From positions 124,001 through 188,000 of the forward strand of contig JAFQIY010000016.1 of NCBI GenBank assembly GCA_017415165.1: a DNA stretch of 64,000 bases. Reading direction: 5' to 3'. Position numbers and translations under genes: made by a program. The notes beneath the pieces were generated by a model. The model was not told where the DNA came from. It ran no database searches and saw only the letters and a list, made by a program, of their open reading frames with translations. The DNA is from Oscillospiraceae bacterium. GTDB taxonomy: Bacteria; Bacillota; Clostridia; Oscillospirales; Ruminococcaceae. This document shows, piece by piece, positions 5,919 to 26,535 of this stretch (position 1 is its first letter; each line of letters starts with the position of its first letter).

Positions 5919-6503
5919 ATGACCGCAACAGCAAAAAAACGTCAGAACTTATACCGTATTGTAGCCGTTGGACTTATGGCGGCGCTTGTTTATATCGGCA
6001 ACTTTATGCAGATTAAGTTTGCAAACGATGCCCGTGTTCATCTTGGCAACTCAATGTGCCTGCTTGCAGGTCTGCTTTTCGGCGGACTCAACGGAGGTCT
6101 TGCGTCAGGTATAGGCGGTGCGATGTACGACCTGTTCGACCCGATTTACATTACCTCTGCACCATATACTTTTCTGTCGAAATTCTGTATGGGATTTGTA
6201 GCAGGTAAGCTGAACCGTATCAATATGCAGAACGAATTCGTAAGAACAGTCATTGCGGCATTGTGCGGTCAGGTTACATATATTGTTCTGTACCTCGGAA
6301 AGAACTTTGTTGAACAGCTTATTCTCGGCAATCCTATGGAAACAGCTATGGGCGTTATGGCAACAAAGGCAGCAACCTCCTGCATCAACGGCGGACTTGC
6401 TGTTCTGATTTCGATACCGCTTTATTTTGCAATCCGAAAGGCTTTGCAGGCTACAGGTTTCAGAATTCTTGTAGAAAACAGTCCCGAAAAAACAAGTGAA
6501 TAA
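5919..6503 (+). CDS. ECF transporter S component (substrate-binding membrane subunit)
   Basis: 194 residues with about five or six hydrophobic segments. It opens YRIVAVGLMAALVYIGNFMQIKF and has the glycine-rich loop GLLFGGLNGGLASGIGGAMYDL, the look of vitamin-type energy-coupling-factor S components (Pfam ECF-type riboflavin transporter superfamily). It would capture a vitamin or precursor and work with a shared EcfAAT module encoded elsewhere. No riboswitch is visible upstream, and the residues do not tell the substrate. Single gene between its own promoter and terminator. The start has AAAGGGAG about 9 bases upstream. Confidence 0.8.
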   Translation: MTATAKKRQNLYRIVAVGLMAALVYIGNFMQIKFANDARVHLGNSMCLLAGLLFGGLNGGLASGIGGAMYDLFDPIYITSAPYTFLSKFCMGFVAGKLNRINMQNEFVRTVIAALCGQVTYIVLYLGKNFVEQLILGNPMETAMGVMATKAATSCINGGLAVLISIPLYFAIRKALQATGFRILVENSPEKTSE

Positions 6504-6510
6504 AATGATG

Positions 6511-6540
6511 ACCTGCGTATTTTGCGCAGGTTTTCTTTTT
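6511..6540 (+). terminator. Intrinsic terminator after the ECF S-component gene
   Basis: Stem ACCTGCG/CGCAGGT (6511-6517 with 6525-6531) followed by TTTTCTTTTT. Confidence 0.8.
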
Positions 6541-6648
6541 GCGCATATTATATTGTATTTAGCACAAAAAAATTGCAAAAAGCTATACACATTTTGCTTT
6601 AAATATGGTATAATGAAAGTTAAAGTTAATTCTGAAAGGAAAATTAAG

Positions 6649-7350
6649 ATGGCTTACGTTGAATTCAGGGACGTTTACAAAAGATATCAGATGGGCGAAG
6701 TAACAATCGCTGCATCTGACGGCGTGAATTTCGAAATAGAAAAGGGCGAATTTGCGGTAATTGTCGGTGCATCTGGTGCAGGCAAGACTACTGTGCTGAA
6801 TATGCTGGGCGGTATGGACACCTGTGACGAAGGAAAAATTCTTGTTGACGGCAAGGATGTAGCAAAATTTTCCACAAAAGAAATGACACGCTACCGCCGT
6901 CAGGATATCGGCTTCGTGTTTCAGTTCTACAACCTTGTGCAGAATCTTACTGCAAAGGAAAACGTTGAGCTTGCAACGGAAATCTGCTCCGATGCTGTTG
7001 ATGCGGAAGAAGTTCTCCGTCAGGTAGGACTTGGTGAGCGTATCAACAATTTCCCTGCTCAGCTTTCGGGCGGTGAGCAGCAGCGTGTTTCAATTGCAAG
7101 AGCGTTGGCGAAGTCACCGAAGCTGCTTCTTTGCGACGAGCCTACAGGCGCACTTGACTACAACACGGGCAAGACAATTCTCAAGCTTTTGCAGGACACC
7201 TGCCGCGAAAAGGGTATGACGGTTGTTGTTATTACTCACAATCAGGCGATTACTCCTATGGCAGACCGTGTTATAAAGATAAAGAACAGCAAGGTTTCAA
7301 GAGTTACCCTTAACGAAAATCCTGTATCCGTAGATACTATTGAATGGTGA
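6649..7350 (+). CDS. ABC transporter ATP-binding protein, LolD/MacB family
   Basis: 233 residues from ATG 6649 (GAAAGGA 8 bases upstream); the frame is open further upstream but has no better start. Walker A is GASGAGKTT at residues 40-48, then the Q-loop [15 protein letters not shown], the signature [15 protein letters not shown], Walker [13 protein letters not shown] and the H-loop VVVITHN. These mark the lipoprotein-export/macrolide-export class that drives FtsX-type permeases. A -10 box (TATAAT, 6609-6614) lies upstream without a convincing -35. The permease follows 16 bases after its stop, so the two form one transporter. Confidence 0.93.
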
Positions 7351-7366
7351 GCAGAGGTATATACTT

Positions 7367-10300
7367 ATGAAAAAAATGCTGTTTCGCAACACGCTCAGAA
7401 GCGTGAAAAATACCAAAAGCCGTTTTATTGCAATTATGGCAATTATTGCAATCGGCAGCGGCTTCTTTGCAGGCGTTAAGTCGGCAGGCCCCGATATGAA
7501 GCTGAGTGCCGCAGATTATCTTCACAAGCAGGCACTTGACGATTTTCACATTGTTTCCGAGCTTGGTATGGACGACGAGGACGTTGCCGCCGCTGAAAAG
7601 CTGGGAATTGCTGACGAGATTTACGCAGGTTACTCCGCTGATTTGATGTTCAGCGCACTTGACGGTGCAGAAAAAATCATCAAGGTTTATTCATACAACC
7701 CCGACAGCGGCATAAGCAAGCCCTACATAACCGAGGGACGTCTGCCTGAAAAGGCTGGGGAAATCTTCATTGATGAAAAACTGTTCAGCAATGCGGTTGC
7801 TGAAATGGGCGGAACAATGTCCCTGCATACTGGTGATGACCGTGAACTTGAAGATATGCTCAATTCAAGCGGTTATACTGTTGTTGGCAAGGGACTTCTC
7901 CCCCGTTACGTTTCCTTTGAACGTGGCACGACTACAATCGGTAACGGTTCAATCGACGGCTGGGCACTTGTTCCTGAGGAAAATTTCACTTACGAAGTTT
8001 ACACGGATATGTACCTGAGCATTGCCGAGGCTGACGGTGTTGACCCGTACAGCGATGAGTACGAGGACATTATTTCCCGCAGCACTGACATTCTTGAAGC
8101 ATTTGCAGAAAAGCAGATTGAGCATAGAAAATCTGTTATTACCGATGAAGCCTACGTTGAAATCAACGATGCAAAGGCTGAATTGGAGGACGGAAAAAAG
8201 GAACTTGCCGATGCTGAAAAGAAAATTGAGGACGGTAAGAAAGAGCTTGCTGATGCTGAAAAGGAGATTGCTGACGGCAAAGCACAGATTGAAGACGGCG
8301 AATCTCAGATTTTCGATGCAATGGAAGCCTTTGAGGGCTGTGTACGAACAGAACAGCGGCTCAAACAGATTATTTCCGATTATGAAACAAATGCTGCTGA
8401 CAGCAATGAAGCCAATGAACGCATAGATGAACTCAACGAAGAATTCTTTACTGTTGACGAAACATTAAAACAGCTTCTGACAGGATATATAATGATGCCT
8501 GCCGCTTATGATGACGGTACAAAGGTAATGGCAAAACAGGGAATTGACCAGTATATTACCGCAATTCACGAACAGGCTGATGAGATTTCACTGCAAATAT
8601 CAGAAGCACAGGAAGAAATTGACAACGCAAAACAGGAACTTTCCGACGGCGAAAAAGAAATTGCAGATGCAAAACAGGAAATTGCTGACGGTGAAAAGGA
8701 AGTAGCCGATGCAAAGGTGGAAATTGCCGATGCGGAAAAGGAAATTGCCGATGCCGAAGCTGAACTTGCAGAAGAACTTGACGGTGCGGAAATGTACGTT
8801 TTTGACCGTGATATGTACCCTGCATACGCAAACTATGCTGAGGACTGCGAGCGAGTTGACGCAATTGCCGCTGTGTTCCCGATTTTCTTCATTCTTGTTG
8901 CGGCACTTGTTTGCTGTACAACAATGACCCGAATGGTTGAGGAACAGCGTACACAAATCGGCACGCTGAAAGCCCTCGGCTACAGCCGTTTTTCCATTAT
9001 CGGGCAGTACATTATATATGCACTTGCGGCAAGTATTCCAGGCACGCTGATTGGTCTGCTGATTGGCTTCAACACCATTCCTGCAATCATTTACGAGTGC
9101 TACCACGCAATGTACAATCAGCCTTACATTATTGCACCTTTCCGCTGGGATTACGCAATCGGCTGTGCTGTTGCGGCTTGTCTTTGCACGGGTCTTTCCG
9201 CACTTTTCGCAAGCCGTCAGGAACTTGTTTCCGTACCTGCACAGCTTATGCGTCCGAAGCCGCCGAAGGAAGGCAAACGAATACTTCTGGAGCGTATCAC
9301 GTTTATTTGGAAACATCTGAAATTCACAACAAAGGTTACTTTCAGAAATCTGTTCAGATACAAGGCACGTCTGCTTATGACCGTTATCGGTATCGCAGGC
9401 TGTACGGCACTTCTTCTCACAGGGTACGGCTTGCAGTATTCGGTAACATCTATTGTTGACAAGCAGTACGGCGAGGTGTTTCAGTACGACTCAATGGTTA
9501 TACTTGATACAAATGCTGACGATGAAGCTTACGCTTCTGTGGTGCAGGATTCACTTGACACGGGTGTTATTTCCGAACAGCTTTTTGCGTTGCAGGAAAC
9601 TCACGATGCTGCAAATTCAAGCGGTGAGGATGTTGAAACCTACATTCTTGTACCTGAAAATTATGCTGAACTGGACAAGTTCATTGACCTGCACAACCGT
9701 GTGTCAGGTGAAACCTACGAACTTGGAGAAAGCGGCGTAATAATCGGCGAAAAGATTTCCCGTATGCTTGGTGTGCAAGCAGGAGACGAAATTCATTTCA
9801 ATGAGGGACATCCTCTCAGGGTTGCTTCTGTGTGCGAAAACTATACCTTCAATTATGTGTTTATGAGCCGTGCCGATTATGAAAAGGCAGGCTTTGAGGA
9901 CGAATTCAGAAGCAATATAATCCTGCAGAATATGAATGACCTCAGCAAGGAAGACGTGCTTTCAACAAAGCTTGTTGGCAATGAATCTGTGCTGACTGTT
10001 CAGTTTTCATCAAACGGCGGTGACAAATTCCGCGACCTTGTAAGCAGTCTGTCAATGATTATCGTTGTTGTAATCGTTGCGGCAGGTGCACTGGCATTTG
10101 TTGTTCTGTTCAACCTTTCAAACATAAACATAAACGAGCGTGTAAGAGAGCTTGCAACTATCAAGGTGCTCGGCTTCTACGACGGAGAGGTTGCGGCATA
10201 TGTATACCGTGAAAATGTACTTCTGACTCTTATGGGTACGGGTGCGGGACTTGTTCTCGGAATTTTCCTTGAAAAGTTTGTCGTGCACACCGCTGAGGTT

Positions 10301-10450
10301 GACTCGGTAATGTTTGCACCTGAAATTCCGCTTTACTGCTTCCTTGCGGCAGCGGCACTGACCGTACTCTTTGCAGTGGTCGTAAATATCACACTCTATT
10401 TCAGACTCAAGAAAATTGATATGGCAACTTCCCTTAAAGCGATTGAATAA
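7367..10450 (+). CDS. FtsX-like ABC transporter permease with extracellular coiled coils
   Basis: 1027 residues from ATG 7367 (AGAGGT about 8 bases upstream); an in-frame ATG at 7340 would overlap the ATPase gene. One N-terminal membrane helix (FIAIMAIIAIGSGFFAG) precedes a large outer domain. Two coiled-coil stretches at about residues 261-315 and 404-471 repeat variants of DAEKEIADGKKE. Then come two FtsX-type membrane bundles (from about 500, and the final quarter), the second holding NININERVRELATIKVLGF, the typical cytoplasmic coupling helix. This is the type VII, mechanotransmission-like permease of the upstream ATPase. Substrate or partner unknown; similar permeases control cell-wall enzymes or resist antimicrobial peptides. 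Confidence 0.9.
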   Translation: MKKMLFRNTLRSVKNTKSRFIAIMAIIAIGSGFFAGVKSAGPDMKLSAADYLHKQALDDFHIVSELGMDDEDVAAAEKLGIADEIYAGYSADLMFSALDGAEKIIKVYSYNPDSGISKPYITEGRLPEKAGEIFIDEKLFSNAVAEMGGTMSLHTGDDRELEDMLNSSGYTVVGKGLLPRYVSFERGTTTIGNGSIDGWALVPEENFTYEVYTDMYLSIAEADGVDPYSDEYEDIISRSTDILEAFAEKQIEHRKSVITDEAYVEINDAKAELEDGKKELADAEKKIEDGKKELADAEKEIADGKAQIEDGESQIFDAMEAFEGCVRTEQRLKQIISDYETNAADSNEANERIDELNEEFFTVDETLKQLLTGYIMMPAAYDDGTKVMAKQGIDQYITAIHEQADEISLQISEAQEEIDNAKQELSDGEKEIADAKQEIADGEKEVADAKVEIADAEKEIADAEAELAEELDGAEMYVFDRDMYPAYANYAEDCERVDAIAAVFPIFFILVAALVCCTTMTRMVEEQRTQIGTLKALGYSRFSIIGQYIIYALAASIPGTLIGLLIGFNTIPAIIYECYHAMYNQPYIIAPFRWDYAIGCAVAACLCTGLSALFASRQELVSVPAQLMRPKPPKEGKRILLERITFIWKHLKFTTKVTFRNLFRYKARLLMTVIGIAGCTALLLTGYGLQYSVTSIVDKQYGEVFQYDSMVILDTNADDEAYASVVQDSLDTGVISEQLFALQETHDAANSSGEDVETYILVPENYAELDKFIDLHNRVSGETYELGESGVIIGEKISRMLGVQAGDEIHFNEGHPLRVASVCENYTFNYVFMSRADYEKAGFEDEFRSNIILQNMNDLSKEDVLSTKLVGNESVLTVQFSSNGGDKFRDLVSSLSMIIVVVIVAAGALAFVVLFNLSNININERVRELATIKVLGFYDGEVAAYVYRENVLLTLMGTGAGLVLGIFLEKFVVHTAEVDSVMFAPEIPLYCFLAAAALTVLFAVVVNITLYFRLKKIDMATSLKAIE

Positions 10451-14698: not shown

Positions 14699-14745
14699 AA
14701 ACAGAACCGTTTCCTATTGTTCAGAAAACGGTTCTGTTTTTTATT
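14699..14745. terminator. Bidirectional terminator between rnpB and the solute-binding protein gene
   Basis: A 12-bp stem (AACAGAACCGTT with AACGGTTCTGTT) with TTTTTTATT on the plus side and an A-rich stretch on the other side, giving a U-rich tail on the minus strand. It can end rnpB and the converging gene. Confidence 0.75.
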
Positions 14746-16414
14746 AAAGTCCCATATCCTTTTTTACATAGTCTGTCATAATTTCTTCAAGCCTGTCAGC
14801 GCCGTTGTTATGACACCAATCGGTAATTTCTTTCCACTTTGCATCAAATTCCTCGGCAGGAACAGTAATCGCATTCTGCACCTCGGTTTTAATATATGTG
14901 TCAAGGCTTTCAAGAAGTATGCCCTCCTCGCTGAGAGAGTGAATTTCCATATCACTTATCAATGTTCTTGTGTATGTCGGCAATTCATCTGCCTGCGGGA
15001 ACATTTCAGCAAAGAGAGTTACTCCGTACCCCTCAGCAGCGGCAGCCTGCGGCTCTGTATATGCTGCAACATATTTATTTACAGCAGCAGAATAGTATTT
15101 TCCGTCAGCATTTTTCTCAGTAAGTCCTCTCATTGGGAAAGGCTCAGCATAAAGCGAAGCACCTGTGTCCTCATAATAGGTTTCGGAAGTAGGGTCAAAT
15201 TCGGCATTGATATCCTCGATTGCAAAATTGACAAGCTCCTGTGCCTCATCACTGCACCACCAATCGAGGAAACGGAACGCTCTTTCAGGTTCTTCACAGG
15301 CTGATGTAATTCCGATACCGTCAGCAACGTCGTAATTACCGTAATCTGCAAGGAACTGAACCTGCATATCCTTATCAAGCGTTACCGCAATCGGACAATA
15401 CATTTTATCGTATTTCCAAGCTGCGGAAAGGATTTCTTCGGCAGGTGCATAATCCTCATAATAATCTGCGATAGCAAGGACGTTACCATTGGAAATGCGT
15501 TCAACATATGCATCGTGCTTCAATGAAAACGACTTTTCATCAAGAACGCCGTCGTTATACATCTGATTAAGCCACTTCACGATTTCGTAGGTACGCTCAT
15601 CAGTCCATTTGTATACGACTTCGCCCGTTTCGTTGTCAACAAGAAATTCGCCGTCGTCTGGATAACCCAGCAGATAATTAATTCTTACGCTTACCGTATC
15701 AAGCCACTGCTGCTGAGGTGCACCGCAAAGGAGCAAACCGCCGCTTGTGGGGTAAAGCTCCTTATATTGTTTCAGACAGTCCCCAAGCTGTTCAAGAGTC
15801 TTTATTTCGGGGTAGCCCAATTCTGCAAGGACTGCATACTGAATCTGGAATGTACCCTCAGCGGTAAACTGTGCGGGAGTTGAACCGCCTGTTCCGAAGG
15901 TATAAAGCTTTCCGTCCTCGGAACGGAGTGTATCAAGGTTATCGCCGTACATTTCAGGGAAAAATTCCCCTACAGTTTCAACGTACTCATCAAGTGCAAT
16001 CAGCGTACCATTCTCAACAAGCTCAGCTGTACGCTCACCTGCATAAATCAGGTCAGGGATTTCTCCTGATTCAATCAGTGCGTCAAGTCCCGTTTCGTCC
16101 TCCGGGACAATAATTTCAAGAGTTACACCTGTCCTTGCGGTAATTTCCTGAGCAACAAGTGTATCAAACGCTGCGGCATATTCGGGGTTATCCACGAAAA
16201 GCGACAGCGTTAAAGGCGTTGTATCCATAGGCGGAATAACACGCTCGGTTGTGGTTGCTTCTGTCTCTGAAACAGATTCTGTGGGCACGGTTGTTTCCGA
16301 AGAAGCTTCGGTTGCAGATGTTCCGGTTGTAACGTCATTATTGTCCGTGCAGGCACACATTGAAGCAGTCATTGCGGCGGACAATGCAAGTGAAATATAT
16401 TTTTTTGTATTCAT
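14744..16414 (-). CDS. Extracellular solute-binding lipoprotein (family 1, LplA-like)
   Basis: 556 residues. A signal peptide ends at the lipobox SMCAC (Cys22), then a Thr/Ser/Glu-rich linker to about residue 62 (TTTERVIPPMDTTPLTLSLF). The mature part reads as a two-lobed sugar-type binding protein: ALIESGEIPDLIYAGERTAE, GKLYTFGTGGS, AFRFLDWWCSDEAQELVNF and the closing EEFDAKWKEITDWCHNNGAD are typical of LplA-like oligosaccharide receptors of Firmicutes. It would bind a carbohydrate outside the cell for ABC import, but no permease lies beside it. It is divergent from the SGNH hydrolase gene, and its leader carries the 15-bp element described at 16424-16438. Confidence 0.88.
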   Translation of the reverse strand: MNTKKYISLALSAAMTASMCACTDNNDVTTGTSATEASSETTVPTESVSETEATTTERVIPPMDTTPLTLSLFVDNPEYAAAFDTLVAQEITARTGVTLEIIVPEDETGLDALIESGEIPDLIYAGERTAELVENGTLIALDEYVETVGEFFPEMYGDNLDTLRSEDGKLYTFGTGGSTPAQFTAEGTFQIQYAVLAELGYPEIKTLEQLGDCLKQYKELYPTSGGLLLCGAPQQQWLDTVSVRINYLLGYPDDGEFLVDNETGEVVYKWTDERTYEIVKWLNQMYNDGVLDEKSFSLKHDAYVERISNGNVLAIADYYEDYAPAEEILSAAWKYDKMYCPIAVTLDKDMQVQFLADYGNYDVADGIGITSACEEPERAFRFLDWWCSDEAQELVNFAIEDINAEFDPTSETYYEDTGASLYAEPFPMRGLTEKNADGKYYSAAVNKYVAAYTEPQAAAAEGYGVTLFAEMFPQADELPTYTRTLISDMEIHSLSEEGILLESLDTYIKTEVQNAITVPAEEFDAKWKEITDWCHNNGADRLEEIMTDYVKKDMGL

Positions 16415-19294: not shown

Positions 19295-19296
19295 AA

Positions 19297-19334
19297 ATGG
19301 GTATCGGAAACAAATCCGATACCCATTAATTTTA
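19297..19334. terminator. Bidirectional terminator between the AI-2E-family and binding-protein genes
   Basis: A 12-bp perfect stem (ATGGGTATCGGA/TCCGATACCCAT, 19297-19308 with 19315-19326), T-rich on the plus side and with AAAA before it for the minus side. Confidence 0.8.
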
Positions 19335-21683
19335 CATATTTTCAGCAATGTAATTTGAAACTCTGTTCTGAATGATGTCTGCAACTTCCTTCGCTGTCTT
19401 CTGTCCCTCAAAGAATGGTGCAGCCTCTTCCTCGATAATCTTGTAGATATCACGGTCATAGCGGCTTACGTTTGTCGTGGACTTGATAAGGTCAAGGACA
19501 CGCTGGTTATCTTCGTCAGTGTTTTCACCAATCTTGATTTCCTGACCGCCAATGTAGTAGGTGTTGTCGTAATACTGCTTTTCGCCGTTTTCGTCAACCC
19601 AGAATGGTCTTTCCTTAGCCTTTTCCATCTGAGCTTCAAGTGCGGAAATCTTGATAGGATACTGCCATTCAAACTGGCTCTGGTATTCGTCGGAAAGAAA
19701 ATACTTGATAAACTCCCACGCGCCGTCAGGATTTGCAGCCTTGGATGTGATTGCAATGGAAGTGCTTGCCTGAATAGCAGCACCGTTGCCCTTTGCACCA
19801 GGATAGCCCTTGAAAGTAATAGGCTCACCGAAATTACCCATTTCCATTTCACGGATTGCACGGAAATTGCTCATATACTGGTCGCTTACAAGTGCCTTAT
19901 TATCTCTGAAACGTGTTTCCTGCTCCATCCAGTAATTGTTGTCCTGATAGAGAGTGTCCCAGTCAATTTCCTTAGGGAAACGGCTTGCAAATTCGAGTAC
20001 CTTGATGAAATCGTCGGAATTGAAGTGGCACTCGCCTGTTGCTGTATCAATATAGCTGTCGTAGCAGTTGGAAATAAGAGTCATAAACACACCGTCACGG
20101 GTCATTTCGTAGCCGAATACCATTGCCTCAGGATGAGCGTCAGCGAGGGCAATGAATTCATCCATTGTCCAGCCCGGCTCCTCGCCTACGATTGAGGATT
20201 TACCAACGAGAGTTGTAATGTTAAAGCTTGGTACAAGCTCATAAAGCTTACCGTCAACGGAATATGCGTCAAAGATATTTGTGAGGTAATCTTCCTTGTT
20301 GATGGTTTCGTCCTTGTCCATATACTGATAAAGGTCTGCAAGGAGTCCCTTTGAGATGTAGCTGTCAACAGGAAGCTCGTTGTTGAGCACGATAATATCA
20401 GGGATGTTACCCGAAATCATATCGTTGTTCATTCTCTTGAGTGCTTCATCGTAGCTCTTTGTTGCGTAATCGTCATAGGATGTAAGCTCAATTTTGTAAA
20501 GTTCGTTTGTCTTGTTGAACTCTACAATCTGACGCTTAACGCCGATATCAAGGTAAAGAGCGTAAATCTTGACAAGCTTCTTGTCAGGAATTTCAGCAGG
20601 GTCAACCTTTGTAAGAATGTTGATTACAAGGTCGTCTGTAGACCAGCTGTAGCCGCCGCCCTGATAGTCATATTCGTATGTAAGGCAGAGAATTCTTCCG
20701 TCAGGTAACACAGTTGTACCGTTGCTGTCCATAGCAGTTGTGTCAATACCAGACTTGAGCCAGTCGATAATTACTTCGCTTTCGCCAGTTTCGATATCGT
20801 AGCCGACAAGTCCTGAGTCTCTTGTGATAAGAAGGTCGTGCTCGTCTGTACCTGCCATAATCTGACCGTTCATTTCGTATGGGTATTCGGTGCCGAGCTG
20901 CTGTGCTGCACAGTCAATTTCATAAAGCTTGCTTTCGGTGATGTACTCGCCGTCAACGTCCTGACCTGTTGTAAACATTGTAAAAAGTCTTCCGTCGCCT
21001 GCTTTATACATACCGCCCATCCAGCTGTTGTCATTAGCAGCTTCATTCTTGATAACATACTTCATACCGCCGTTATCGTCAACACCGAAAATCATACCGT
21101 TGCTGCTGATAAGCATTGTTCCATCGTTTGCAAAATTGATGTTTTCAGGATAGAACCAATCCTGATTGGTTTCCTTCATAGCCTGCTCCTTGAATTTTTC
21201 AAGGTCAAGCTCGGAAAGCAGCTCGCCCTCAGTATTGAACCTCTTTACGAAGTAGCCTTCTTTGGACTCACCTGTTAATTCGTTCCACTCATAAGAGTTT
21301 TCGATTGCAACAAGGTTACCGTCATTGTCCATAGCGAGGTTGTTGATATATCTGCTTGAGTTGGATGTACCATCGTTTGTTGTGAGAACAGCCTCCTTTA
21401 TAAGAGTGCCGTCAAGACCGACAATCTGCAATAATGTTTCGCTGGTGTAGGTCATATTTTCGCCTTCACCCTCGGTGTGAGACTTGTCACCTACGATGTA
21501 GAATTTGTCATTGGCGTAGAGCATACGGTTGATGTAGTCAAGACCACCCGGAAGCTCAACCTTCTGTGATGAGTAAATGTTGTCCTTGGAAGCGTAAACT
21601 TCCTTCTTACCGCAGGATGTAAGGGAAAGTGCCATACCCACTGCCATTACTGCCGCAGTAATTCTTGATGCAATTTTATTCAT
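19332..21683 (-). CDS. Lipoprotein fusion of a propeller-like domain and a family 1 solute-binding domain
   Basis: 783 residues from ATG 21683 (an upstream TTG at 21689 is possible). Lipobox LTSC, Cys24. Residues about 35-375 carry recurring blades of the type NNLAMDNDGNLVAIENS, INFANDGTMLISSNG and MDSNGTTVLPDGRILCLTYE, suggesting a beta-propeller. From about 385 a binding-protein module follows (KIYALYLDIGVKRQIVEFNK, MISGNIPDIIVLNNELPVDS, NPDGAWEFIKYFLSDEYQ). Almost double the usual receptor length. It is last in a five-gene operon, and its start overlaps the preceding gene. Presumed receptor for the two sugar-type permeases; ligand unknown. Confidence 0.85.
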   Translation of the reverse strand: MNKIASRITAAVMAVGMALSLTSCGKKEVYASKDNIYSSQKVELPGGLDYINRMLYANDKFYIVGDKSHTEGEGENMTYTSETLLQIVGLDGTLIKEAVLTTNDGTSNSSRYINNLAMDNDGNLVAIENSYEWNELTGESKEGYFVKRFNTEGELLSELDLEKFKEQAMKETNQDWFYPENINFANDGTMLISSNGMIFGVDDNGGMKYVIKNEAANDNSWMGGMYKAGDGRLFTMFTTGQDVDGEYITESKLYEIDCAAQQLGTEYPYEMNGQIMAGTDEHDLLITRDSGLVGYDIETGESEVIIDWLKSGIDTTAMDSNGTTVLPDGRILCLTYEYDYQGGGYSWSTDDLVINILTKVDPAEIPDKKLVKIYALYLDIGVKRQIVEFNKTNELYKIELTSYDDYATKSYDEALKRMNNDMISGNIPDIIVLNNELPVDSYISKGLLADLYQYMDKDETINKEDYLTNIFDAYSVDGKLYELVPSFNITTLVGKSSIVGEEPGWTMDEFIALADAHPEAMVFGYEMTRDGVFMTLISNCYDSYIDTATGECHFNSDDFIKVLEFASRFPKEIDWDTLYQDNNYWMEQETRFRDNKALVSDQYMSNFRAIREMEMGNFGEPITFKGYPGAKGNGAAIQASTSIAITSKAANPDGAWEFIKYFLSDEYQSQFEWQYPIKISALEAQMEKAKERPFWVDENGEKQYYDNTYYIGGQEIKIGENTDEDNQRVLDLIKSTTNVSRYDRDIYKIIEEEAAPFFEGQKTAKEVADIIQNRVSNYIAENM

Positions 21684-22740
21684 CAGCAATACCTGCCTTT
21701 CTGTTTTTGATTTTTGTAAATAATTTATTGAAAATACGCTTTACCGTATTTACAAACCAAGTGAAAAATGTTTTTCTTTTTCGGTAACCTATAACTATAT
21801 AGGTAGAAGCCGTGCCGATCGGAAGTATCAGTCCGAGAAACTGAAAGACAAGCACAAGTGCAGATTTATCCTCAGTAATTCTTGCGGCATTTTCCCAGTA
21901 AGGATAAACAATTGAATTGTCTCTTACAGAGCGCATACCGAAATTCCTGATGATATCAAACCGATTTTTCAGGCTGTATCTTGCCGAATTTTCAACAGCT
22001 GTGTATCTTTCCTTTTCAACGGGTACAGACTCCGTGACAATTTTTTCCGCAAGTCCCGTTACAGGGTCGGGCAGACACGCCTCATAACAGCTGAAATACG
22101 GGTCATTGCCGAGAATTTCGTACCCCTGATAAGGCATAAACATCATCGGTGACTCGCCTAAAAGCTTTTCCGTTTCGGAATTATCACTCTTTCGGAATAC
22201 ACCTGCTATATAGAAATATTTTGTCCCGATAAGCACAGGCTTTCCTGCAATGTCACTTGCACCATAAAGCTGCCACGCAAGTGTTTCATCAATCAGCACA
22301 CGGTCATACATAAGATTATCATCGGAATAGTAATACCCCGAAAGAAGCTCCAACGGGTGAAAGAGGAAGAAGTCCCCGCCCGTTATTATCGTCTGCACCT
22401 CCGTATTTCCGTAATCCGAAGAAACTGTCATTTTTACATTTCCTGACGAAAAGGCATCTACCCATATTCTTGCGTTTGCCTTTTCCGATACAAGTGAATT
22501 TTCCACAAGCTTTTTTCCTATATCAACTCTTGCTGTGAAAACCCCGTCTGTATTCATTGCAAACATCTCGTCGGTAACTATGCTTACCTGTGCATACCTC
22601 TCACTGCCGTCTGACCATCGTTCAACTGTATGCTGGTCAGGCAGTGAATTCTTTATCATTGATGCTGCAAGCGTCATTAATGCAAAAAACAGAAGCGATA
22701 TTCCGTTTATAACAATAAGAACTATATGTTTCCGTTTCAT
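21676..22740 (-). CDS. MacB-like extracytoplasmic protein with two membrane helices
   Basis: 354 residues from ATG 22740 (GAAAGG about 6 bases upstream). One N-terminal helix (VLIVINGISLLFFALMTLAA), an external domain of about 250 residues resembling the MacB periplasmic core (FTARVDIGKKLVENSLVSEK, VLIDETLAWQLYGASDIAGK, FYIAGVFRKSDNSETEKLLG), then one C-terminal helix (LVLVFQFLGLILPIGTAST) and a basic tail. Normal MacB/FtsX permeases have four helices; the usual last three are replaced by one, so it probably cannot form a complete permease. Its stop overlaps the start of the binding-protein gene. Confidence 0.7.
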   Translation of the reverse strand: MKRKHIVLIVINGISLLFFALMTLAASMIKNSLPDQHTVERWSDGSERYAQVSIVTDEMFAMNTDGVFTARVDIGKKLVENSLVSEKANARIWVDAFSSGNVKMTVSSDYGNTEVQTIITGGDFFLFHPLELLSGYYYSDDNLMYDRVLIDETLAWQLYGASDIAGKPVLIGTKYFYIAGVFRKSDNSETEKLLGESPMMFMPYQGYEILGNDPYFSCYEACLPDPVTGLAEKIVTESVPVEKERYTAVENSARYSLKNRFDIIRNFGMRSVRDNSIVYPYWENAARITEDKSALVLVFQFLGLILPIGTASTYIVIGYRKRKTFFTWFVNTVKRIFNKLFTKIKNRKAGIADE

Positions 22741-22754
22741 AATCACCTTTCACA

Positions 22755-24641
22755 TCAGGACTCAACAAGTCGTACCTGCATACCTGCTTCAATCGGTTTT
22801 GTAGAAGTTGTGATAATAAATTCTCCTCCGAAAAGTCCTCCCGAAATTGCCGAAGAAGTATCATCGGAAGCAAGAACCTCAATATCAACTCTTTCAGCAG
22901 TATATCGGTTGCCAAGCGGACTGCTCTTTGCAACGACAGACAGCACGAATTTACCGTTGTTGTCCTCACGGATTGCACTGTTAGGCACAATCATTTCGTA
23001 TGGCTGACCCTTTGCACCCATAGCAAGCTGCAGATTTTGTCCGGGGGTAACATCGCCTGTTATTTCAAATCTGAGAATTTTATTCTTGGCAGGGTTTGCG
23101 GCATCTGACTTGATAGCCTGAAGAACAGCCTTTGCATCGCCGTACCAGAAATATTGAATTTCTGCTTCGTCACCGACCTTTACCTTTCTCGCCTGTTCGG
23201 TTGTAACAGTCATTTCAAGAGTGTATCCCTTATCTGTCATTTCAATTTTTGCAATGGAAGACCCCTGAGCTGCTTCTTCACCTGCAACAAAAGGAAGCTC
23301 TGTAATTCTTCCTGCAACCTGTGCCTTGATTTCTGTATCAACAGACTTGGCTTCAAGCTTTTTCACAAGCTCCTCCTGGTTAAAAATTTCGTCCTGCTTA
23401 GCTTTTAAATCGAGAGCCGCAATTCCCGCATTTTCTGCATCAGACTGCTGTTTCTGAACAAGGGTAACTTTCATCTGTTCAATTTCTCTTTCAGCAGCAC
23501 GGATTTCCGCTTCTGCCTCCTCATCGGTTTTTGAAGCCTTGCCCTTCAGCTCCTCAGATTCAACCATAAGCTCATCAAGTATATTCTGAGTGGTCTCCTG
23601 CTTTGTCTTGATATCAGTTTTCACCTCAAAAAGTGCGGTATCAAATTTAAGCTTTGCGTCATCACATTTTTTCTGATTAGTAGAGAGAGTTATTCTTTCA
23701 GCATTGAGAAGCTGCTGATTTCTTGAGTAACTGCTTGATTTTGAAAGCTCACTGTTGTAATCCTCCTGCAAATGCTGCAAATCAAGGTTAAGTCTGTTGA
23801 GCTTTGCATTAAGTGCATCAATGGTTTCCTGACTAAAATCAGATTTCATATACTCATTTGTAATTTCAGTCTGGGTTTCGCTAATTTCAAGGAGCTTATT
23901 GTCCATTGCCTGTTTTGCCGCCTTTATTCCTTCAGCATTTCCGCCTGAAGCAATATCTCCCTCATATTTCTTGATTTTATCCTCTGTCTTAGCCTTTGCC
24001 TTCTCAGCAGCGTCATATGTAGCCTTGACCTTGCTAATCTTGTTGTAATAATCCGTACCTAAAGAGGTATAATCTTCCGCAGCAAGCGCCGCAAGCTGTT
24101 CAGTATATGATTCAATCTGCTTCTTATAGCTTTTAATTTTGTCCTCGATTGCTTCATAGTCCTTACGATAATCGTCAAGATTTTCATATTCGGCTTTGAG
24201 AAGCACCAAATCTTCTTCCTTATTTTTTATACTGAGATTATCGAGAGTATAATCTTCGCCTGTAACAAGCAATGCTTTCTTATATTCCAGCTTTAGGCTG
24301 TCAAGAGTTTTCTTTGCCGCTTCAAGTTCAGGACTTTCAGTCTCCTCGAGAGTCATTATTGTCTGTCCCTTTTCAACCACATCTCCGACACTGACATTAA
24401 CAACTGCGATAACTCTTGTTTCATCAAGCTTCATTTCATAGCTTTGATTAGCAGTAACAGTACCGCTTCCTCTTATCTGCTCGGAAAGCGTACCGCCGCC
24501 TATGTACTGTGCCGAAACCTCAGGAAGTGAGTAATTCATTATTGTATTTGAAAAGAAAGTCAGAATGAGCATTATCACAAGAAAAATGATTATTGCATTT
24601 TTTACCCATTCTCTCCTTTTGGTGCTTTTATTTTCGTTCAT
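22755..24641 (-). CDS. HlyD/RND-type membrane-fusion adaptor with long coiled coil
   Basis: 628 residues. N-terminal membrane helix (about 14-36), then a first half-lipoyl segment (RGSGTVTANQSYEMKLDETR and VSVGDVVEKGQTIMTLEE). About 330 residues of alpha-helical coiled coil follow (roughly 105-440), then the second lipoyl half (AQVAGRITELPFVAGEEAAQ), a beta-barrel (MTVTTEQARKVKVGDEAEIQ) and a C-terminal domain (EMIVPNSAIREDNNGKFVLS). This is the layout of MacA-type adaptors, with an unusually long hairpin. Gram-positive adaptors of this type serve MacB-like exporters. Here the neighbours are a partial MacB-like protein and sugar-type import permeases. Confidence 0.88.
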   Translation of the reverse strand: MNENKSTKRREWVKNAIIIFLVIMLILTFFSNTIMNYSLPEVSAQYIGGGTLSEQIRGSGTVTANQSYEMKLDETRVIAVVNVSVGDVVEKGQTIMTLEETESPELEAAKKTLDSLKLEYKKALLVTGEDYTLDNLSIKNKEEDLVLLKAEYENLDDYRKDYEAIEDKIKSYKKQIESYTEQLAALAAEDYTSLGTDYYNKISKVKATYDAAEKAKAKTEDKIKKYEGDIASGGNAEGIKAAKQAMDNKLLEISETQTEITNEYMKSDFSQETIDALNAKLNRLNLDLQHLQEDYNSELSKSSSYSRNQQLLNAERITLSTNQKKCDDAKLKFDTALFEVKTDIKTKQETTQNILDELMVESEELKGKASKTDEEAEAEIRAAEREIEQMKVTLVQKQQSDAENAGIAALDLKAKQDEIFNQEELVKKLEAKSVDTEIKAQVAGRITELPFVAGEEAAQGSSIAKIEMTDKGYTLEMTVTTEQARKVKVGDEAEIQYFWYGDAKAVLQAIKSDAANPAKNKILRFEITGDVTPGQNLQLAMGAKGQPYEMIVPNSAIREDNNGKFVLSVVAKSSPLGNRYTAERVDIEVLASDDTSSAISGGLFGGEFIITTSTKPIEAGMQVRLVES

Positions 24642-24656
24642 ATCAAAAATCCTTTC

Positions 24657-25577
24657 TTAACCCTTGATACCTCCGGAATATGTAATACCCTCAACAAGAT
24701 AGTCCTCACCATAGAGGAAGATAAGGAGTGCAGGTATCATATAGATTGTTGCAACAGCAAATGCAAGTCCGATTTCGCCTGTGTTAATCCTTGACAGAAA
24801 TACTGACAGCGGATACAAGTCAGGGTCGGAAAGCAGGATGAGCGGCTGTTCAACCATATTCCAGTAATCTATAAAAACAAGAATTGCTACCGAATAAAGT
24901 GCGCTTTTGCAAAGGGGCATACAGATATACATAAAAATCTGCAGCTCACCTGCTCCGTCAAGCTTTGCCGCCTCTATCATAACCGACGGAATACGTCTCA
25001 TAATCTTTGTCAGCAGAAACACCGAAAACGGTGTGAAAATTCCCGGCAGAATAATTGCCCAACGTGTATCCAGAATGTTCAGCCAATCGGAAACAAGATA
25101 GTTTGGTACAAGCGTTACCTGATACGGCATAAGCATTACGATTATGTACACGAAAAACAATATTTCCTTCAGCCTGCCCTTCAGCCTTGCAAAGCCGTAT
25201 GCCGCAAGCGACGCCGTGCCAAGCTGAAAAACCACAATCGGTACAACAAGAATTACTGAATTCCAGAATTTCAGCAGGTAATCGGGACTCTTGAAAAGCA
25301 CAGTAAAATACTGACTGAATGACACCATATCGGGAATAAATTTAAGATTAATCCTTTCGGAAACATATACCTTGCTGCCCTCCTCGGTTGTGGCAAAAAC
25401 AGAACCGTAGTTAGCGCTGATTTCCGAAGCACTCATAAACGAGTTTGCAATTGTAAGCACTGTTGGAAGCAGAAAAATTACTGCGGAAACAGCTGCAAAA
25501 ACAGTAAGCACCGCAACAATTATTTTCTGTCTTATTCGGGAAGGTCTTCGGATTTTTTTTACAGCAGCATTACTCAT
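24657..25577 (-). CDS. Carbohydrate ABC transporter permease (MalG-like)
   Basis: 306 residues, six predicted membrane helices. The cytoplasmic EAA loop reads IEAAKLDGAGELQIFMYICM, the ATPase docking motif of binding-protein-dependent importers. N-terminus is basic (KKIRRPSRIRQK). Typical family length is 270-300. Its ATG overlaps the stop of the preceding permease gene by 4 bases (ATGA), so the two are translationally coupled, as for MalF/MalG pairs. No ATPase gene is present in the operon; importers of this class often share a multi-sugar ATPase encoded elsewhere. Confidence 0.93.
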   Translation of the reverse strand: MSNAAVKKIRRPSRIRQKIIVAVLTVFAAVSAVIFLLPTVLTIANSFMSASEISANYGSVFATTEEGSKVYVSERINLKFIPDMVSFSQYFTVLFKSPDYLLKFWNSVILVVPIVVFQLGTASLAAYGFARLKGRLKEILFFVYIIVMLMPYQVTLVPNYLVSDWLNILDTRWAIILPGIFTPFSVFLLTKIMRRIPSVMIEAAKLDGAGELQIFMYICMPLCKSALYSVAILVFIDYWNMVEQPLILLSDPDLYPLSVFLSRINTGEIGLAFAVATIYMIPALLIFLYGEDYLVEGITYSGGIKG

Positions 25578-26458
25578 CCCTCAACATCCTCCCCGAATTT
25601 ATTTTCAGCAATAAACAGCGCTCCGATAATTATTATCATTACAATCGCCATCAGTATTGCTGCCGAAGAAAGCTTCTGATAGTCAATGTTACGGAAGGTG
25701 TTGTTCATAAAATGCTGAAGCATATACAGGCTGTCATATGGGTAATCCCCTGTAAGCAGATAGACTTCACGGAAAACCTTGAAGGAGTTAATCAGCGAAA
25801 GCACTGTTACAAAAAGAATTGTCGGGGAAAGGTAACGAAGCTTTATTTTGAAGAATTTATACACGGAGCCTGCACCCTCAAGAGTTGCAACCTCCAGTAT
25901 ATCCTTTGGTATGTTATTCAATGCCGCAAGGAACAAAATCATATTGTATCCGAGGTTTTTCCACAGGAACAGAAGCACTACGACTACCTGCCCCAGCTCG
26001 GATTTAAGCCAGTCGATTTTGTCAACGTCAAAGTTGGCAAGAAATTCGTTCAGTGCACCATTGTAATGGAAAATTACCTGCCATATAAGCACGACCGATG
26101 CAACAGGTACCATCATAGGACACAGGAAGCTTGTTCTGAACTGACTTACAAACGGGATTTTGCTGTCCAGCAGCATTGCAAGGAACATTGACAGCACCAC
26201 CGCCAGCGGGACGGAAATCATTGCGAAGGAAAATGTGTTGAGAGCCGCCTTTTTGAACGCATTGTTTTTAAGCACATTTATGTAATTGTCAAGGAACACA
26301 AATTCCTTGCTGATTGCGTTATCTACCATTGAATAATATATAATCACACAAAAAGGGATTATAAAGAAAATCAACACGCCTATAAGACTCGGTATAAGAC
26401 ACACGGCAGGAAAAACGCTGTCTTTATTGGGTTGCTTGCGGGATTTGCTCTTTTTCAT
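25574..26458 (-). CDS. Carbohydrate ABC transporter permease (MalF/UgpA-like)
   Basis: 294 residues from ATG 26458 (MKKSKSRKQPNKDS). An ATG at 26494 has no ribosome binding site, whereas AAAGGAG lies about 14 bases before 26458, slightly far. Six membrane helices; the EAA loop is LEVATLEGAGSVYKFFKIKL, then the family motif PTILFVTVLSLINSFKVF. It pairs with the downstream MalG-like subunit to form the translocation pore. First gene of the five-gene operon. Confidence 0.92.
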   Translation of the reverse strand: MKKSKSRKQPNKDSVFPAVCLIPSLIGVLIFFIIPFCVIIYYSMVDNAISKEFVFLDNYINVLKNNAFKKAALNTFSFAMISVPLAVVLSMFLAMLLDSKIPFVSQFRTSFLCPMMVPVASVVLIWQVIFHYNGALNEFLANFDVDKIDWLKSELGQVVVVLLFLWKNLGYNMILFLAALNNIPKDILEVATLEGAGSVYKFFKIKLRYLSPTILFVTVLSLINSFKVFREVYLLTGDYPYDSLYMLQHFMNNTFRNIDYQKLSSAAILMAIVMIIIIGALFIAENKFGEDVEG

Positions 26459-26506
26459 TTTATGCCCTGAAACTCCTTTCTGCAAAGATAACATTTTACT
26501 TCAACA

Positions 26507-26535
26507 ATTATATCATACATTTTTCTCTTTTTCTA
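26507..26535 (-). promoter_or_regulatory. Probable promoter of the five-gene transporter operon
   Basis: On the minus strand TAGAAA (26535-26530), 17-bp spacer, TATAAT (26512-26507). The -35 is weak, which would fit regulated expression. Confidence 0.5.

Follow-up and report, generated by a model that had tools for sequence, protein, structure and literature searches.

We describe a five-gene operon in the genome of a gut Oscillospiraceae bacterium (GenBank assembly GCA_017415165.1) that unites the permeases and receptor of a sugar importer with an adaptor and a MacB-type protein, both of which are export parts elsewhere. The operon occupies positions 19332-26458 on the minus strand of a 64,000-nucleotide stretch of contig JAFQIY010000016.1 (positions 124,001 to 188,000 of the forward strand), which we refer to as the window. 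Although the importer and exporter parts of ATP-binding cassette (ABC) systems are treated as separate worlds, here a conserved operon joins them and, judged by gene content and order across relatives, the hybrid is a real conserved unit rather than a chance juxtaposition. Each part comes from a known family, and the combination has the look of a real and apparently undescribed cell-envelope machine; among the papers listed in searches of open-licence PMC text, none describes importer permeases combined with an adaptor and a MacB-like protein.

A five-gene operon of importer and exporter parts

Five open frames of the minus strand make up the operon. The first two, PERM1 (25574..26458) and PERM2 (24657..25577), encode a MalF/UgpA-type and a MalG/UgpE-type permease, respectively. 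They are followed by HLYD (22755..24641), a MacA/HlyD-type adaptor with one N-terminal membrane helix; the MACB-like gene (21676..22740), encoding a MacB-type external domain between two membrane helices with no ATPase domain; and LIPO (19332..21683), a lipoprotein with a beta-rich N-terminal half and a C-terminal half of the oligosaccharide-receptor type. A preliminary description of this DNA had proposed just such a mix, and both the frames and the Pfam matches agree with it, as does the spacing that it gave: PERM1 and PERM2 overlap by 4 bases and 15 bases separate PERM2 from HLYD.

Both permeases match BPD_transp_1 in Pfam and, as first described, carry intact EAA loops (LEVATLEGAGS in PERM1 and IEAAKLDGAGE in PERM2), so that the loops at which an ATPase docks are kept; they are retained in the module's relatives as well. 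Among NCBIfam models the permeases lie nearest GlcU/UgpE and UgpA, with scores far under the curated cut-offs. HLYD matches HlyD_3 in Pfam, RND_mfp below that model's cut-off and, by profile, MacA in the PDB weakly (E 2.7e-05). Its two lipoyl halves are separated by 333 residues, some 166 per arm, a segment that is probably a long helical hairpin with a reach of at most some 25 nm if helical throughout. On sequence alone, HLYD therefore has the split lipoyl domain around a helical hairpin and the single N-terminal helix of a MacA/HlyD adaptor. Since ordinary adaptors in the same table have 59 to 336 residues between the lipoyl halves, a long hairpin is not unique to HLYD.

The MACB-like protein matches MacB_PCD in Pfam. 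Its AlphaFold2 model, built on an alignment of 60 sequences (mean predicted local distance difference test score, pLDDT, 93.7), has membrane helices at residues 5-33 and 283-322 plus a C-terminal helix at 324-355, as expected from the earlier proposal of a MacB-like external domain on only two membrane helices. The first Foldseek matches were MacB of A. baumannii (5gko, E 1.8e-11) and then the MacB-like transporter of S. pneumoniae (5xu1), with MacB of MacAB-TolC (5nik) and the external domain of YknZ (5f9q) also among the top matches. Because the template modelling (TM) scores over the whole query are only 0.37-0.41 for the first five, the shared part is the external domain. The protein thus has the external domain (PCD) of MacB and other type VII systems. 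MacB also has four helices with a C-terminal FtsX-type half and an ATPase of its own, fused or adjacent; the window protein has two helices, its operon holds no such ATPase, and none is a constant neighbour in relatives. A two-helix protein of this kind cannot itself be a MacB transporter.

LIPO carries a lipobox, LTSC (read by eye), and an SBP_bac_8/SBP_bac_1 match over residues 390-672, the receptor half beginning at about residue 390. In its structure model (pLDDT 88.6) residues 39-377 are beta-rich and the remainder forms the receptor half; the best fold match of the model is a sugar-binding protein of C. thermocellum (7x0o, E 2.6e-17). The preliminary description had seen a propeller-like region joined to a sugar receptor. 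Pfam and the fold both support the receptor; the N-terminal half is beta-rich, and its propeller nature was not confirmed, since all 50 fold matches listed are receptor proteins or fusions with maltose-binding protein and their alignments are about as long as the C-terminal half. With two EAA-loop permeases of the BPD_transp_1 family and a lipoprotein receptor of oligosaccharide-binding fold, the operon has two of the parts by which CUT1 (type I) importers are recognised.

Conservation of the gene set across genomes

Searches seeded with the MACB-like protein found the gene in 22 of 61 related genomes, comprising the window's own genome (G000), all 20 others of the same genus and 1 of 16 from other genera of the family; none of 24 from the order outside the family had it. 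From the 21 genomes with a match outside G000 we fetched 22 loci (the genus set). All five genes stand in the same order in 17 of these, L054 among them, and the other five loci are cut by contig ends; at least one of eight other window genes compared is present in only 6 of the 22. A second collection, the named-genome set, holds the best 80 of 203 relatives, of which 21 are, judged by length, the same contigs as in the genus set. All five genes are present at 69 of the 80 loci (52 of the 59 that were new), in the order PERM1-PERM2-HLYD-MACB with lipoprotein genes before, after or on both sides, and median intergenic gaps over 72 loci are -4, 29 and 12 bases. Of the 11 incomplete loci, 10 stop at a contig end where the absent gene is expected (this is assumed for the receptor of L139). 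The question raised in the preliminary description, whether the five genes stay together across genomes, can therefore be answered in the affirmative.

Neighbouring genes were far less constant. Among neighbour clusters recognised by eye and found in 4 or more loci, the commonest beyond the five module genes occurs at 16 of the 80 named-genome loci and is a mixed ABC-ATPase cluster; the next occurs at 12. A phylum-wide search with query A4 gave matches in 115 of 398 genomes. The context of 20 of these loci was examined: the module is present at six (L298-L303), the only ones that we count as such from this search, and the other 14 are of the ordinary MacB type.

Since loci fetched with the MACB-like protein cannot show permeases that lack a MACB-like gene, adaptor and permease seeds were needed as well. 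We ran these on 391 genomes of the class, with thresholds of E<=1e-6 for MACB, E<=1e-20 for the adaptor and E<=1e-60 for PERM1. There were 34 genomes with a MACB match and 26 with an adaptor match, and all 26 adaptor genomes lie within those 34. One of the eight MACB-only genomes, G267, carries the module (L223); in the other seven the fetched stretch shows no permease of the module, and for two of these the contig is shorter than 10 kb. PERM1 relatives occur in 48 of the 391 genomes. Twenty-seven of these are the 26 adaptor genomes and G267, and in 25 of the 27 the genes lie within a few kb of one another by coordinates, those of G140 and G201 being split between contigs. For 16 of the other 21 (17 loci; G094, G167, G394, G096 and G141 were left out) we examined the flanks, and 13 genomes (L387-L399) have adaptor and MACB-like genes with the permeases; the weakest of these MACB calls (19-59 bits) are backed by profile-profile comparison with probabilities of 90-98. 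The adaptor and MACB frames are fragmented in G419, the adaptor is in two pieces in G403, and G413 has no PERM2 match. A contig end truncates the locus of G072, and G143 has a second locus (L403) that runs no further than PERM2. At three loci (L388, L393, L395) the same gene set is rearranged, with the adaptor and MACB-like genes ahead of the permeases.

In total at least 40 of the 48 PERM1 genomes hold adaptor and MACB-like genes, so that about one in ten of the class genomes sampled carries the combination. The preliminary description had allowed for a chance juxtaposition if most relatives kept the permeases and receptor without the adaptor and MACB-like gene, or if an ordinary MacB ATPase-permease lay nearby. 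Run from the permease seed, the comparison upholds the hybrid. Formally the second case does apply, since an ordinary FtsX/MacB-type ABC pair lies at 6496-10450 on the plus strand: a 284-residue ATPase and a 1036-residue permease with FtsX and MacB_PCD matches, whose neighbours are an ECF S component of the riboflavin type and a PASTA plus beta-lactamase-like protein. However, this pair is 9 kb off, on the other strand and not conserved with the block, and we regard it as a separate system.

Two branches of the module

Phylogenetic trees separate three of the module's proteins from their ordinary relatives. For PERM1, 41 module rows stand apart from 10 ordinary CUT1 permeases with support 99/100, and for PERM2, 42 module rows stand apart from 10 ordinary ones with a Shimodaira-Hasegawa approximate likelihood ratio (SH-aLRT) value of 100. 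The permease outgroup in each case was small, at 10 rows, because any row that scored at least 200 bits against the module profiles was excluded, and it precedes the finding of the farther PERM1 relatives. In the MACB tree, 42 module rows stand apart from 24 ordinary MacB permeases (SH-aLRT 96). Over 41 loci the pairwise distances of PERM1, PERM2, HLYD and the MACB-like protein correlate with r 0.89-0.96, against at most 0.26 in 2000 permutations; such a correlation would arise also from shared species history, which contributes.

The PERM1 and MACB trees split the module, with L318 apart, into two branches. The first includes the window's genus, Lachnospiraceae and relatives; its MACB-like protein usually has two hydrophobic helices, and its adaptors have 220-432 residues between the lipoyl halves. 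The second consists of families f45, f90, f109, f177, f196, f229 and f238, with 5-6 hydrophobic stretches in the MACB-like protein and an adaptor segment of 87-134 residues. Despite these 5-6 stretches, no FtsX Pfam match was found in three second-branch MACB proteins scanned (L223, L230, L302). Four to six hydrophobic stretches were also counted at the farther permease-seeded loci with a scored MACB. Receptor size varies likewise: about 450-500 residues in a van-linked clade (below) and L226, 703 in L230, 730 in L223 and mostly about 735-890 in the first branch.

A MalK-type ATPase, dedicated or probably shared

Neither the open frames nor Pfam give an ATPase gene in the window operon, and the preliminary description had called the operon one without an ATPase. 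This proved to be a trait of the lineage and not of the system, because in several other lineages the gene for a MalK-type ATPase stands beside the MACB-like gene. The frame that follows MACB in L224 and L230, overlapping the end of that gene, encodes an ATPase with matches to ABC_tran, OB_MalK and TOBE_2. An ATPase of the same composition stands beside MACB in L298 and L302, and one is present in the operon of L346, with LIPO between it and MACB. All six module loci from the phylum-wide search (L298-L303) have a MalK-like gene after MACB, that of L299 being MalK-type by score. By contrast, 11 of the 14 ordinary MacB loci have an ABC ATPase of 229-259 residues in the gene run. In a count made with a single query and a threshold of 300 bits, MalK-type genes occur at 16 of 16 loci of a deep clade, 2 of 4 loci of f45 and f90, 2 of 10 other deep loci and 3 of 80 named-genome loci (L133, L139 and L155, each directly after MACB), compared with 0 of 22 genus-set and 0 of 22 ordinary MacB loci. 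A MacB-type ATPase was considered as a constant operon partner and not found as such in genus-set or named-genome loci.

For the window's own genome, the early suggestion of a shared ATPase gained support. G000 has one OB_MalK match, a 411-residue ABC_tran/OB_MalK/TOBE_2 protein on contig C18, which is not the window contig, and no ABC_tran match lies within 10 kb of the G000 permease pairs on C11, C28, C45 and C69. Of 23 genomes searched, 19 gave an OB_MalK match. It is thus probable that G000 shares its ATPase among importers, and the use of that ATPase by the operon is something that we infer; shared ATPases of this kind are known, as described for MsmX of B. subtilis (PMC7658222).

A deep clade with van-type wall genes

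The flanks of L301-L303, in the second branch, hold an OmpR-type regulator and a HisKA kinase, and one or two of the three loci also hold a Peptidase_S11 D,D-carboxypeptidase, VanZ, a member of the D-Ala-D-Ala ligase family, VanW and FemAB. Searches of the order of G643 (11 of 113 genomes matched) and the class of G780 (4 of 82) supplied twelve further loci. Counted with fixed bit thresholds and queries taken from the van-linked clade, at least one van-type wall gene occurs at 13 of 16 deep-clade loci and a ligase of the family at 9 of 16; the exceptions are L300, the 5.1 kb L343 and L347. As a control, the same count gave wall genes at 0 of 22 ordinary MacB loci. The last of the exceptions, L347 (G871), is a broken copy of the six-gene operon, with the permease and MACB frames in pieces near kinase and regulator genes.

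We scanned 10 proteins with curated NCBIfam van models. VanI ligase matches exceeded the cut-off of 700 in L301, L345 and L346 (749, 731 and 755 bits, respectively), VanX that of 320 in L345 and L346 (390 and 388 bits), VanW that of 365 in L345 (474 bits) and VanS that of 400 in L339 (407 bits). The L336 ligase is nearest VanG, below its cut-off (451 against 495). From VanI, the genomes of this clade may be Desulfitobacterium-like. The published vanI work covers Desulfitobacterium and Desulfosporosinus and gives the cluster as vanX-murF-vanK-vanW-vanI-vanR-vanS; the words 'ABC', 'transporter', 'HlyD' and 'MacB' are absent from its main text (PMC4229326). In a survey of van regulators, the text available mentions ABC transporters with vanRS upstream of them for Robinsoniella and a single such transporter with vanRS next to it for Enterococcus, of a kind that it leaves unspecified (PMC11273654).

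The deep-clade six-gene operon thus resembles vanI-type clusters in adjoining VanRS-like, VanI-type ligase, VanX, VanW, VanZ or D,D-carboxypeptidase genes. It differs in that the published cluster, in the main text describing it, comes without the words ABC, HlyD or MacB, and the window operon has no van-type genes alongside, no VanRS and ligase cluster being found at any of the 22 loci of the window's genus. In the deep clade the operon belongs to a glycopeptide-resistance or peptidoglycan setting, which suggests a role in the cell wall and not a purely nutritional one.

Interpretation and alternatives

What the sequences show directly is which genes are present and in what order, that they are conserved whichever end a search starts from, and that the partner ATPase, where one is encoded, is of the MalK type. 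We favour, with moderate confidence, the reading that they make up one ABC system, in which a MalFGK-type (type I) importer is combined with an extracytoplasmic platform derived from MacAB and the ligand is most likely a wall-associated saccharide. Direction of transport, substrate and the formation of a complex are the parts of this reading that we infer. PERM1 and PERM2 would form a membrane channel, driven by a MalK/MsmX-type ATPase that is dedicated in some lineages and would be shared in the window's genus. The lipoprotein would catch a saccharide-bearing ligand outside. Beside the channel, the MacB-type subunit, with no ATPase and with two membrane helices in the window's lineage, would hold the HlyD adaptor, whose hairpin may extend into or through the wall zone. 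Between wall and channel, adaptor and MacB-type domain together could then make up a guide or a gated chamber, in the way that MacA and MacB serve export (PMC5985334). The ligand may be a fragment of peptidoglycan or of a wall glycan and, in one deep clade, the system may serve a response to glycopeptide or wall stress. A wall-derived ligand is the least certain of these steps: it would follow from one clade's context together with the sugar-receptor fold, and the window's own branch has no wall genes beside the operon.

Several observations weigh against this reading. Wall genes occur at 0 of 80 named-genome, 0 of 22 genus-set (the two sets overlap), 0 of 10 other deep and 0 of 4 f45/f90 loci, and none is labelled at the 20 loci of the permease-seeded flank reading; because the wall-gene queries came from the van-linked clade itself, distant homologues could be missed in such controls. 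No curated van model is matched above its cut-off by the L339 and L345 carboxypeptidases (VanY-D at 92 and 78, against 625). The receptor fold of LIPO gives no substrate. G007 and G014 (89% and 82% complete), two of 15 same-genus genomes including the window's own, carry the module with no OB_MalK match, and L132 and L136 carry a protein of 233-244 residues from the ABC-ATPase cluster two genes after MACB, beside an ECF-type S component. The module's parts are also separable: G422 (L402) has permeases, receptor and adaptor and, in place of a MACB-like gene, a phosphodiesterase-like gene, an indication that the adaptor can function where the MacB-like part is absent; G155 (L400) has an importer of the PERM1 family with neither adaptor nor MACB-like gene, and a MalK-like gene three genes on from the permeases; and L397 has a second set in which MACB is matched but the adaptor is not. 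L168 is the one real exception among the named-genome loci, with HLYD-MACB-LIPO and no PERM2 in the 952 bases upstream of the adaptor. Finally, the tree of 42 module and 25 other adaptors needs two changes, although a single clade is not rejected (approximately unbiased test, p 0.60); a single origin is thus weaker for the adaptor than for the other parts.

The same G155 and G422 loci, which show that the permease family can do without the additional genes, might be taken to mean that an ordinary sugar importer merely sits beside a decayed MacAB exporter, as might the facts that each part comes from a common family and that the MACB-like protein is without half of a MacB. We give this next to no credence. 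The gene set is kept from either seed, even where it is rearranged, and its members form module clades on the trees; with synteny from three seeds (MACB, adaptor and permease), a chance juxtaposition is rejected and is refuted as far as sequence can do so. A more substantial rival, if still an unlikely one in our judgement, is an importer of dietary glycans, along the lines of the carbohydrate uptake first proposed, in which adaptor and MacB-type part serve nutrition simply by spanning a thick envelope so that the receptor reaches the channel. The sugar-receptor fold, the logic of a shared ATPase as with B. subtilis MsmX (PMC7658222), the many gut samples among the 80 named-genome records and a uronate isomerase-like neighbour cluster, recognised by eye near the block in 5 of the 80 loci and itself a point against a wall ligand, all fit it, and for the window's branch it is compatible with the reading that we favour. 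The partners in the deep clade, however, are wall genes, and no non-module neighbour cluster exceeds 16 of 80 loci, a weak objection as clusters in fewer than 4 loci fall outside the count.

The van-type context lends itself to two further explanations. In the manner of Bce-type systems, a non-transporting or slow complex might signal the state of the wall to a kinase: pairs of kinase and regulator, VanRS-like or other, adjoin the deep-clade operon, weaker kinase or regulator matches lie near L300, L346, L389, L390, L394, L395, L402 and L406, and the receptor has a beta-rich extra domain in the window's branch. Intact EAA loops and an ATPase of a working type argue for transport instead, and the 80 named-genome loci hold no VanS- or VanR-like protein at the set threshold (their flanks had no general kinase scan), so we consider a sensor rather improbable. 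More improbable again, to our minds, is a MalK-driven exporter or extractor that would clear the membrane-wall zone of a wall-active compound by way of the adaptor. In other systems adaptor and MacB-type domain belong to exporters and the van-type genes of one clade would suit such an extractor, but channel and ATPase are of the importer class and come with a receptor protein, and export by importers of this fold is not known.

How does the operon compare with known systems? It shares with CUT1 (MalFGK2-type) importers that use an MsmX-type shared ATPase the MalF/MalG-type permeases with EAA loops, a lipoprotein receptor of the oligosaccharide class and a MalK-type ATPase, which is encoded in the operon in some lineages and would be supplied from elsewhere in others. 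To our knowledge CUT1 systems have no adaptor and no MacB-type subunit, whereas both are nearly constant here and the receptor often has a beta-rich extra domain. With MacAB-TolC and the Gram-positive YknXYZ and SpMacAB, type VII systems of the MacB family, it shares a MacA-type adaptor and a MacB-type external domain encoded side by side (PMC5985334); it differs from them in having no MacB-type ATPase in the operon, in a MACB-like protein that is down to two helices in the window's branch, and in importer permeases and a receptor in the same operon. That review of MacA/MacB export also discusses adaptors of Gram-positive bacteria alongside MacB homologues. If the operon's parts do join with a MalK-type motor, it would follow that a foreign ATPase can power adaptor and MacB-type domain or that these two work passively, which would give a role to adaptors in bacteria without an outer membrane. 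The van-cluster link in one clade, unmentioned in the main text of the vanI paper, makes the machine testable as part of a wall-stress response.

A more far-reaching proposal, which we put forward only tentatively, is that the module is, in architecture, a class of its own among ABC systems. In it, a MacA adaptor and a MacB subunit without an ATPase would build a duct across the envelope through which an importer powered by MalFGK takes up its ligand. The class would predate the split of the sampled lineages, belong to glycopeptide or wall-stress gene clusters in one clade and have been re-tooled in gut Oscillospirales and Lachnospirales, where the re-tooling would consist of a longer adaptor hairpin and the receptor extension. 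If such a class exists, MacA-type adaptors serve uptake and not export alone. An anti-phage defence role was also considered and rejected, as PADLOC gave no specific match: there was none for the five window proteins, and only general ATPase matches for the L302 MalK-type protein.

Start sites, transcription signals and related loci

From the ribosome-site reading, PERM1 probably starts at 26458, with AAAGGAG upstream (its longest frame begins at 26494), the MACB-like gene at the ATG at 22740 and LIPO at the ATG at 21683, overlapping the MACB-like stop by 8 bases. A promoter-like pair lies upstream of PERM1 on the minus strand (26507..26535) and a 13-pair bidirectional terminator-like hairpin follows LIPO (19296..19327), both being consensus matches only; they make a single transcript for the five genes plausible as candidate signals, promoter-like pairs in the region being barely commoner than in shuffles (20 found, 16.1 expected).

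Elsewhere in the window, a second SBP_bac_1 lipoprotein gene without adjacent permeases (14744-16414, minus strand) has a counterpart close to the operon at just two of the 22 genus-set loci, L054 and L055. The LIPO frame of L054 (7208-9565 of that locus, minus strand) has one in-frame stop at codon 272 and is a pseudogene or an assembly error. The LIPO gene is tandemly duplicated in L062, L064-L068 and L180, and in L180 MACB is followed by as many as four copies; the receptors diversify, whereas each of the other four module genes stays single. In L219 and L221 (family f66) the module adjoins a second CUT1-type set with a protein of 833-873 residues that holds a PERM1-like permease region.

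An adaptor search for plasmid-borne named relatives gave one record, Subdoligranulum variabile OY725868 (locus L318), and a plasmid search with the L302 adaptor gave 14 records of weak identity (22-28%), mostly labelled efflux adaptors. L318, on a 305 kb record called a plasmid, is a very distant block of receptor, two permeases, and adaptor-like and MACB-like proteins without a Pfam match, with a kinase upstream and a GGDEF-EAL protein downstream.

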